Shown here piece by piece: positions 930 to 5,807 of a stretch of DNA of 44,977 nucleotides. This stretch comes from Litorivicinus sp. (GTDB taxonomy: Bacteria > Pseudomonadota > Gammaproteobacteria > Pseudomonadales > Litorivicinaceae). The stretch covers positions 1 through 44,977 of the forward strand of contig QXYM01000011.1 in the NCBI GenBank assembly GCA_009886945.1. The letters run 5' to 3'. The notes below the pieces were generated by a model. The model saw nothing but the letters and a program-made list of their open reading frames with translations. It was not told the origin of the DNA and searched no databases. The stretch's first letter is position 1. Each line of letters begins with the position of its first letter. Position numbers and translations under genes: made by a program.

Positions 930-999
930 CTTAATCTCTCCAACGGCTCAGCGCCGCTTGGCAACAACAAACAAACATAGAATAGAAATAGAAACCAAG

Positions 1000-1029
1000 A
1001 AAAATCGAACCGCCCATCAGGGCAGTCGA
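1000..1029 (-). terminator. leuA attenuator (Rho-independent terminator)
   Basis: Read on the minus strand, the arms TCGA-CTGCCC (1020-1029) and GGGCGG-T-TCGA (1005-1015) pair over about 10 bp with one bulged T and a 4-nt TGAT loop. TTTTT (1000-1004) follows immediately, then CTT. The 5' arm lies inside the last codons of the leader ORF and the leader's stop codon is in the loop. Position and structure are those of an attenuator between leuL and leuA. Confidence 0.85.
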
Positions 1030-1070
1030 AGGCCAAATAGCAGATTGTCATTGGCGAATTGCGTGTTCAT
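1017..1070 (-). CDS. leuL: leu operon leader peptide
   Basis: A 17-codon ORF, MNTQFANDNLLFGLRLP, lies about 90 nt upstream of leuA. Four of the last eight residues are leucine, using codons CTG, CTA, CTT and CTG at positions 10, 11, 14 and 16. The ORF runs into the terminator hairpin, whose 5' arm covers codons 14-17. Leucine-rich leader peptides in front of leuA are established in gammaproteobacteria, and I infer that translation of this peptide senses charged tRNA-Leu. No Shine-Dalgarno sequence precedes the ATG, and the predicted transcription start falls on or next to it, so it may be translated as a leaderless message. An in-frame stop 13 codons upstream excludes a longer form with a usual start. 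Confidence 0.8.
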   Translation of the reverse strand: MNTQFANDNLLFGLRLP

Positions 1071-1076
1071 GGTTCG

Positions 1077-1105
1077 AGAATGCCAATGAACAGCTGTTTG
1101 CGCAA
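1077..1105 (-). promoter_or_regulatory. putative sigma-70 promoter of leuL-leuA
   Basis: On the minus strand, TTGCGC (1100-1105) and CATTCT (1077-1082) are separated by 17 bp. The expected transcription start, 6-8 nt downstream, is 1069-1071, on the leuL ATG at 1070. The match to consensus is moderate. Confidence 0.5.
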
Positions 1106-1146
1106 GTCAGTTTTTTCTATCGGTGCCATTGCGGGTGACTATTAAC

Positions 1147-5769: not shown

Positions 5770-5797
5770 ATTGTGACACTCAGAAATGGCCTGTCAA
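5770..5797 (-). promoter_or_regulatory. putative sigma-70 promoter of ilvI-ilvH-ilvC
   Basis: On the minus strand a perfect -35 TTGACA (5792-5797) is followed after 16 bp by CACAAT (5770-5775), or after 17 bp by ACAATT. The -35 box is part of the 3' arm of the clpB-proximal hairpin. A start near 5763 would give a 5' UTR of about 34 nt. Confidence 0.6.
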
Positions 5798-5807
5798 CTG
5801 ACAGGCC
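5788..5807 (-). terminator. inverted repeat after clpB, probable terminator
   Basis: GGCCTGTCA and TGACAGGCC form a perfect 9-bp inverted repeat with a 2-nt centre, 8 bp after the clpB stop. The T-tract is weak (ATTTCTG), so termination may be incomplete. The hairpin overlaps the -35 box of the ilvI promoter. Confidence 0.5.

Follow-up and report, generated by a model that had tools for sequence, protein, structure and literature searches.

The leuA leader region of the window

The window (the whole stretch of 44,977 nucleotides that was analysed) begins with the first 309 codons of leuA, which encodes 2-isopropylmalate synthase, on the reverse strand (positions 1 to 929, start at 929); the gene extends beyond the window. 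Upstream of it, on the same strand, lies a leader open reading frame (ORF) of 17 codons, MNTQFANDNLLFGLRLP followed by a stop (1017 to 1070; ATG 1070-1068, TGA 1019-1017), in which codons 10, 11, 14, and 16 encode leucine. The end of this ORF can fold as a hairpin, here called hairpin 1 (1005 to 1029, reverse strand), whose 5' arm (1029-1020) consists of the last base of codon 14 and codons 15 to 17, whose UGAU loop (1019-1016) contains the stop codon, and whose 3' arm occupies 1015-1005. A preliminary description of this DNA had reported the 17-codon leader, its four leucine codons, the coordinates, and the stem, and all of these were correct when the window was read again. It had also placed leucine codons inside and next to the stem and the stop codon in the loop, and both placements are true of the window.

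The 41-nucleotide (nt) fold that contains hairpin 1 has a predicted energy of -15.9 kcal/mol (z -4.7), and none of 200 shuffled sequences was equally stable. The stability of the whole 146-nt leader is ordinary (z -1.0; 36 of 200 shuffles as stable). Hairpin 1 is followed on its 3' side by a U-tract, TTTTTCTT (997 to 1004, reverse strand), and together they form a candidate intrinsic terminator in the lineage of the window. A terminator-like site was found at 1027-1008, and there were two such sites in a 701-nt region, counting both strands, where 0.8 were expected. The spacer between leader and leuA is 63% T. A further hairpin, CCAAGCGGC-GCTGA-GCCGTTGG (940 to 961, reverse strand), includes the GG of the leuA Shine-Dalgarno sequence GGAG (941-938).

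On the other side of the leader is a conserved block that resembles a promoter (1077 to 1106, reverse strand). It is made up of CTTGC (1106-1102) and, 15 nt after it, TTGGCATTCT (1086-1077), whose last hexamer lies 6 nt 5' of the leader ATG. A simple sigma-70 scan of the window did not flag this block. From its resemblance to a promoter we infer that transcription would start at 1070, at the ATG itself. As the ATG comes only 6 nt after a -10-like sequence, the leuA leader mRNA is probably leaderless. Elsewhere in the window, between the acetolactate synthase gene and the gene preceding it, there is an inverted repeat, GGCCTGTCAGTTGACAGGCC (5807-5788), followed by ATTTCTG (together 5781 to 5807, reverse strand); no branched-chain leader peptide was seen there by eye.

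Conservation in Litoricola and the proposed direct blocking of hairpin 1

The genus of the window, Litoricola, is now named Litorivicinus. Its 22 genomes, including the one from which the window was taken, provided 16 that hold leuA together with its upstream DNA, and in all 16 the hairpin core CGACTGCCCTRANGGGC occurs exactly once, before leuA. The six genomes without the core are 56 to 88% complete and have no leuA match or lack its upstream part. The leader is exactly 17 codons long at all 16 loci and always ends in R-L-P-stop. Codons 2 to 9 diverge, and the promoter-like block, the ORF, and the hairpin core are kept; the columns CTTGC, TTGGCAT, and CTC are invariant. The 6-nt gap between the conserved block TTGGCATnCT and the ATG is likewise present at all 16 loci, as counted by a script that looked for the hexamer CATnCT at that very gap. 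Much of the invariance of the core is Leu-Pro coding plus the complement of that coding sequence. Leucine is conserved unevenly, with Leu16 at all 16 loci, Leu11 at 14, Leu12 at 11, Leu10 at 9, and Leu14 at 7. Of the two codons at which the earlier view had placed the stall, 14 and 16, Leu16 is kept throughout, and Leu14 is present in fewer than half of the relatives.

The consensus fold of the 16 Litoricola leaders contains hairpin 1, the Shine-Dalgarno hairpin (with one pair changed on both sides, in one sequence), and a weak long-range helix. It contains no competitor of hairpin 1 and no antiterminator. When the 5' arm was masked in six Litoricola leaders, the 3' arm of hairpin 1 had no common partner. 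Alignment of the orthologous leaders had been proposed as a check, and in it the leader ORF was conserved at 16 of 16 loci and a conserved antiterminator was not found, in agreement with the first impression that a classical antiterminator is missing. A conserved antiterminator is absent from the genus fold, and competitors that are not conserved may exist. The one exception that had been pointed out, a GCCAA/TTGGC pairing inside the ORF, does occur in the window, yet the genus as a whole does not preserve it, and both this pairing and a classical antiterminator were dropped.

The central proposal had been that a ribosome stalled at codon 14 or 16 itself blocks the hairpin. By a rule of thumb the ribosome footprint ends 15 nt after the first P-site base, and we applied this rule with the stalled codon in the A-site. 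In the six leaders that were folded, stalls at codons 14 and 16 remove hairpin 1. Because such stalls cover the 5' arm and hairpin 1 has no competitor in the consensus fold, direct blocking is possible without an antiterminator, and such direct removal of hairpin 1 by a ribosome on the leucine codons is likely. Stalls at codons 10 and 11 are another matter, as hairpin 1 survives them in five of the six leaders (in the remaining one, L016, the stem is rearranged). That stalls at these conserved codons leave hairpin 1 in place counts against the explanation that we prefer below.

The other half of the proposal, that hairpin 1 is a terminator, did not hold as a conserved function. The T run after the stem is at least 4 long at 9 Litoricola loci and at most 3 at the other 7, and across the class U-tracts are hardly enriched (see below). 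As U-tracts are missing in many relatives, an intrinsic terminator was rejected as the conserved function. Litoricola spacers are 42 to 65% T, and 24 to 87% of their 8-nt windows contain at least 5 T. Since the genus does not conserve the U-tract, which is what a T-rich spacer would be expected to contain, intrinsic termination may not be real even in the window, where hairpin 1 remains a possible terminator.

The leader across the Gammaproteobacteria

We searched 293 genomes of the order with a 14-base core pattern, which was present in 102 of them; the reversed control pattern was present in about 36 (counted from the listing), so many single core matches are due to chance. Of 30 core matches displayed automatically (L048-L077), none lies before leuA. 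Among 20 matches picked by hand, mostly reading CTGCCCTGAGGGGC, 16 lie 123 to 289 nt before a LeuA motif, and the leaders of these picked loci end in LLLLP-stop, LLP-stop, and similar. In the sister genus, the 14-mer at G022:C59:491-504 (L094) has no leuA within 400 nt and is probably a chance match; the DNA upstream of leuA in that genome ends at a contig end. Named genomes were also searched for a core that lies at a fixed spacing from leuA, which gave at least 116 stretches; 114 of 116 passed the leuA check. Methylococcaceae, Chromatiaceae, Moraxellaceae, Porticoccaceae, and Thiotrichales are among the matches listed (80 titles). One contig titled Klebsiella pneumoniae (L167, CAMAXE010000027.1) has the same length (66132) and the same leader as L079 (G032:C27), from the order of the window, and is probably a mislabelled metagenome bin.

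As these loci were selected by the core itself, a second survey was built on LeuA alone. We drew 150 genomes evenly over the class and used the 109, one per family, whose LeuA match reached E 1e-100 or better; upstream DNA was obtained for all of them (shorter in two loci, L287 and L293). Three of 133 loci had no leuA motif at first and were included in the later class count. To count as a leader, a short ORF had to contain at least 4 Leu in the last 12 codons and Leu-Pro in the last 10, and to end 60 to 330 nt before leuA; this definition was set after examples had been seen, and the controls were judged by the same one. Leaders were found in 65 of the 109 families, compared to a mean of 2.6 (maximum 6) in 20 rounds of dinucleotide shuffling and 2 on the reverse strand; the other 44 genomes failed the definition. 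Comparative evidence gives good support to a translated leader of leuA that is linked to leucine. The same numbers weigh against an alternative in which hairpin 1 serves constantly and without regulation as a terminator or as an RNA-stability element and the ORF is incidental. The stable hairpin with its U-tract in the window agrees with it, and so do the terminator-like sites found between leader end and leuA in 15 of the 65 class leaders (2.7 in mononucleotide shuffles, which also destroy hairpins of every kind). It does not account for Leu-rich Leu-Pro ORFs in so many families, and we consider it highly improbable.

All 65 class leaders have an in-frame ATG, and a Shine-Dalgarno-like 4-mer precedes any of these in only 7. 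Counted by start codon, such a 4-mer is found at 8 of 91 leader ATGs, compared to 9% of random positions and to 56 of 62 leuA starts. Where a leader has a single ATG (41 cases), good -10 hexamers are most frequent exactly 6 nt before it (27%, versus about 1% at gaps of 12 to 25 nt) and are still raised at 7 nt (17%) and 8 nt (10%). Both results speak for a leaderless start. Several of the loci L087-L091 share CGTTTTACAAT-like stretches between leader and leuA, which perhaps represent a second leuA promoter that bypasses the leader.

The inner part of the hairpin is usually CTGCC...GGCAG, and its loop, its length, and the position of the stop codon differ between class members (TGCCC-TGAG-GGGCA, CTGCC-GTAA-GGCAG, CTGCC-CTAG-GGCAG, CTGCCG-TAGC-CGGCAG, and CTGCCGC-GCTA-GCGGCAG). 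A GGC follows the CC of Leu-Pro after 3 to 15 nt in 63 of 65 leaders. Hairpin arms pair over a longer stretch with their own partners than with those of other leaders (4.94 versus 4.75 pairs, n=63; 23 of 5000 permutations). We also placed the stop codon relative to the best stem near the end of each leader: it lies wholly in the loop in 38 of the 65 leaders and in loop plus 3' arm in 10; it follows the stem after 0 to 3 nt in 14 and after 7 nt in 1, and falls in the 5' arm in 2. The median strength of this stem is reached by 19.6% of random-position controls (22% by free energy). With so moderate an excess over random positions, it is placement and covariation that carry the argument, not stability. 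The hairpin also bears on the idea of a nascent peptide that arrests the ribosome at Leu-Pro-stop, in which the ribosome tunnel would respond to leucine or to a lack of it. Leu-Pro does stand near the leader end even where its distance to the stop differs, but the leader definition itself required Leu-Pro, the remainder of the peptide varies freely, and Leu-Pro also makes up the 5' arm of a stem with covariation in its lower part. In our view, peptide arrest is very unlikely.

A U-tract follows hairpin 1 in 10 of 63 class leaders, compared to 7.0 expected elsewhere in the same stretch, and is absent from the other 53. Transcription termination may well operate in some lineages, but it is no common feature. 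Where hairpin 1 lacks a U-tract, as in most relatives, the output must be another step. Rho-dependent termination is one candidate. In this alternative, release of the ribosome at the leader stop exposes a G-poor, unstructured stretch that a stalled ribosome hides, and tnaC is an example of Rho-dependent termination hidden by a stalled ribosome. The many leaders without a U-tract are consistent with it, and so is the composition of the 40 to 60 nt after the stop codon, which over the class average 0.27 to 0.31 C and 0.14 to 0.18 G; several Methylococcales spacers have, by eye, tens of bases almost without G. Outside this stretch the asymmetry of C and G is weak, and in Litoricola the spacer has much T and few C. 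Taken together, Rho as the explanation seems to us unlikely.

A different output is suggested by the start region of leuA. For the longest run of perfect complementarity that links leader end to leuA start, the mean is 5.69 with a leader's own partner and 5.04 with the partners of others (n=65), an excess reached in none of 5000 permutations, none of 5000 within GC blocks, and none of 300 synonymous resamplings. A second, pattern-derived set of 79 leaders, which may share families with the first, gave 4.87 versus 4.49 (0 of 5000 permutations, 0 of 300 synonymous resamplings); it was drawn from 149 core-bearing loci after removal of Litoricola, near-identical leaders, and unusable leuA starts. 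Duplex energy between leader and start region was as low in only 1 of 2000 permutations, and three other region pairs showed no effect. No own-partner excess was found for the region after hairpin 1, or for hairpin 1 itself, against the leuA start region, and these pairings were dropped. Another pairing, of leader codons 5 to 7 with the leuA start codon, occurs only in some Litoricola of the clade of the window and was given low weight. Examples are a complement of 11 bp in L244 and complements of 9 bp in L257, L252, and L092.

These results count in favour of translational control of the type proposed for the actinobacterial LEU element, in which the freed stretch of leucine codons pairs with the leuA ribosome-binding site and a stalled ribosome prevents this. 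The effect is modest. In 32 of 65 leaders the complement is shorter than 6 bp, and the 6 leaders with at least 8 bp are within the permutation range (maximum 8). Against synonymous resampling the duplex energy has a mean z of only -0.25 (p 0.012), and none of 64 leaders is in the lowest 5%. A duplex as good as that of leader and start region in the window (-21.1) arises in 6% of shuffles, and 9 of the 16 Litoricola leaders have a duplex of their own that at least 10% of shuffles match, so that codon/Shine-Dalgarno pairing is doubtful in the window and in Litoricola. As the main explanation we regard this kind of control as possible but rather unlikely, and the same holds for the part that hairpin 1 would play in it, namely helping to set up the fold.

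Many class members have a second hairpin, CCTGGCGAGG, after the leader (29 of 65, mostly with ACGC or ACGT downstream); the copy in L303 is probably due to chance. In alignment A3, which comprises 37 of 48 references, with copies in another register and some near duplicates left out, the GGCG loop is invariant (37 loci; for instance, L214:2277-2324 and L119:727-774). The stem covaries over these 37 copies, with 21 double-changed cells versus 8.1 in shuffles (0 of 500), but pairs with a double change are no more numerous than usual (314 of 500 shuffles). The loop could pair with the downstream ACGC as a pseudoknot. The CCTGGCGAGG...ACGC module is absent from all Litoricola leaders. An alternative pairing between hairpin 1 and the second hairpin, noted by eye in Chromatiaceae, was dropped because it is not general.

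Proposed mechanism and comparison with known systems

The explanation that we prefer, and regard as reasonably probable, is a leucine-responsive leuA leader that would act through the translating ribosome, and in which the codons that sense leucine would also be the RNA strand that regulates. Transcription probably begins at the ATG, and the ribosome would then load at the 5' end. When leucine is plentiful, the ribosome would arrive at the stop codon and depart, the Leu-Pro-stop strand would fold as hairpin 1, and leuA expression would stay low. A shortage of charged leucine tRNA would halt the ribosome on the leucine codons, above all at Leu16; with the ribosome on the 5' arm, hairpin 1 would not form, and leuA would be expressed. 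In the lineage of the window the output would be hairpin 1 with its U-tract, most simply as an intrinsic terminator; in most relatives it would probably be the accessibility of the leuA ribosome-binding site, or Rho. Translation of the leader, the stalling, and the output step are what we infer from this arrangement. A similar layout precedes leuA in many gammaproteobacteria and has the look of a widespread, uncatalogued switch that responds to a lack of leucine. More tentatively, and with somewhat less than even confidence, we suggest that it is a single switch for the class, in which the leucine codons of one leaderless strand would serve as sensor, as 5' arm of the hairpin with the stop codon, and, for many lineages, as anti-Shine-Dalgarno sequence of leuA. 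With similar reserve, this switch would have no separate antiterminator, and its outputs would differ, with the U-tract in Litoricola and a pseudoknot-like module elsewhere.

The Rfam 15 leader families gave no match at the gathering threshold, either in the window or at the leader in 18 relatives, and at loose E-values there was no credible leader-family match over the element of the window. In seven relatives searched at loose E-values, only a below-threshold Trp_leader was found, in L020, upstream of the leader ORF and on the same strand. Two sister-genus genomes also have matches to the cspA thermoregulator below its cut-off of 78, upstream of the leuA leader (L020:2667-3080, 51.6 bits; L026:2163-2556, 45.6 bits; both on the reverse strand). 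Ten leader peptides from ten families had no match in NCBIfam or Pfam at E 1.

E. coli leuL (Rfam Leu_leader) works by classical ribosome-mediated transcription attenuation. The present leader resembles classical leu and trp attenuation in that codons for the product amino acid lie in a leader ORF before leuA and a stem is partly made of leader codons. It differs in that the Litoricola consensus fold has no competing antiterminator, the leader codons form the key hairpin itself, the stop codon is in the loop, the mRNA is probably leaderless, a U-tract is mostly missing, and Rfam has no match. In textbook attenuation the sensing codons are apart from the switch hairpins, whereas here they overlap, and this overlapping layout recurs over much of a bacterial class with no family in the libraries scanned (Rfam, Pfam, and NCBIfam). 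In pyrBI and tnaC, a ribosome on the leader directly prevents downstream termination without an antiterminator. Direct blocking by the leader ribosome would be shared with these systems; the signal here would be charged leucine tRNA, not pausing of RNA polymerase or free tryptophan.

In the portions of the open-access literature available to us, which included PMC1262725, PMC2659441, and PMC2965389, we found no published description of this leader; an earlier mention is possible. Other leuA leaders are on record there for Shewanella (an attenuator that we group with the classical type, PMC2659441) and, as the LEU element, for Actinobacteria (PMC1262725). For the LEU element, the accessible text proposes that a run of leucine codons pairs with the leuA Shine-Dalgarno sequence (Seliverstov et al. 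2005, PMC1262725), and it reports that mutated leucine codons did not have the effect that classical attenuation would give (PMC1262725). As far as that text goes, the leuA leader ORF is common to both, as may be a leucine-codon run able to pair with the leuA Shine-Dalgarno sequence, and many gammaproteobacterial class members also have in between a hairpin that is a potential pseudoknot. The Leu-Pro hairpin with the stop codon, the other taxa, the lack of the pseudoknot-like module in Litoricola, and the doubtful codon/Shine-Dalgarno pairing there set the present leader apart from the element in that account. If the proposed mechanism is true, it would be a simpler design of amino acid sensing, it would predict that many environmental bacteria translate regulatory ORFs from leaderless mRNAs, and it would tie the control of gammaproteobacterial leuA to the puzzling LEU element of the Actinobacteria.
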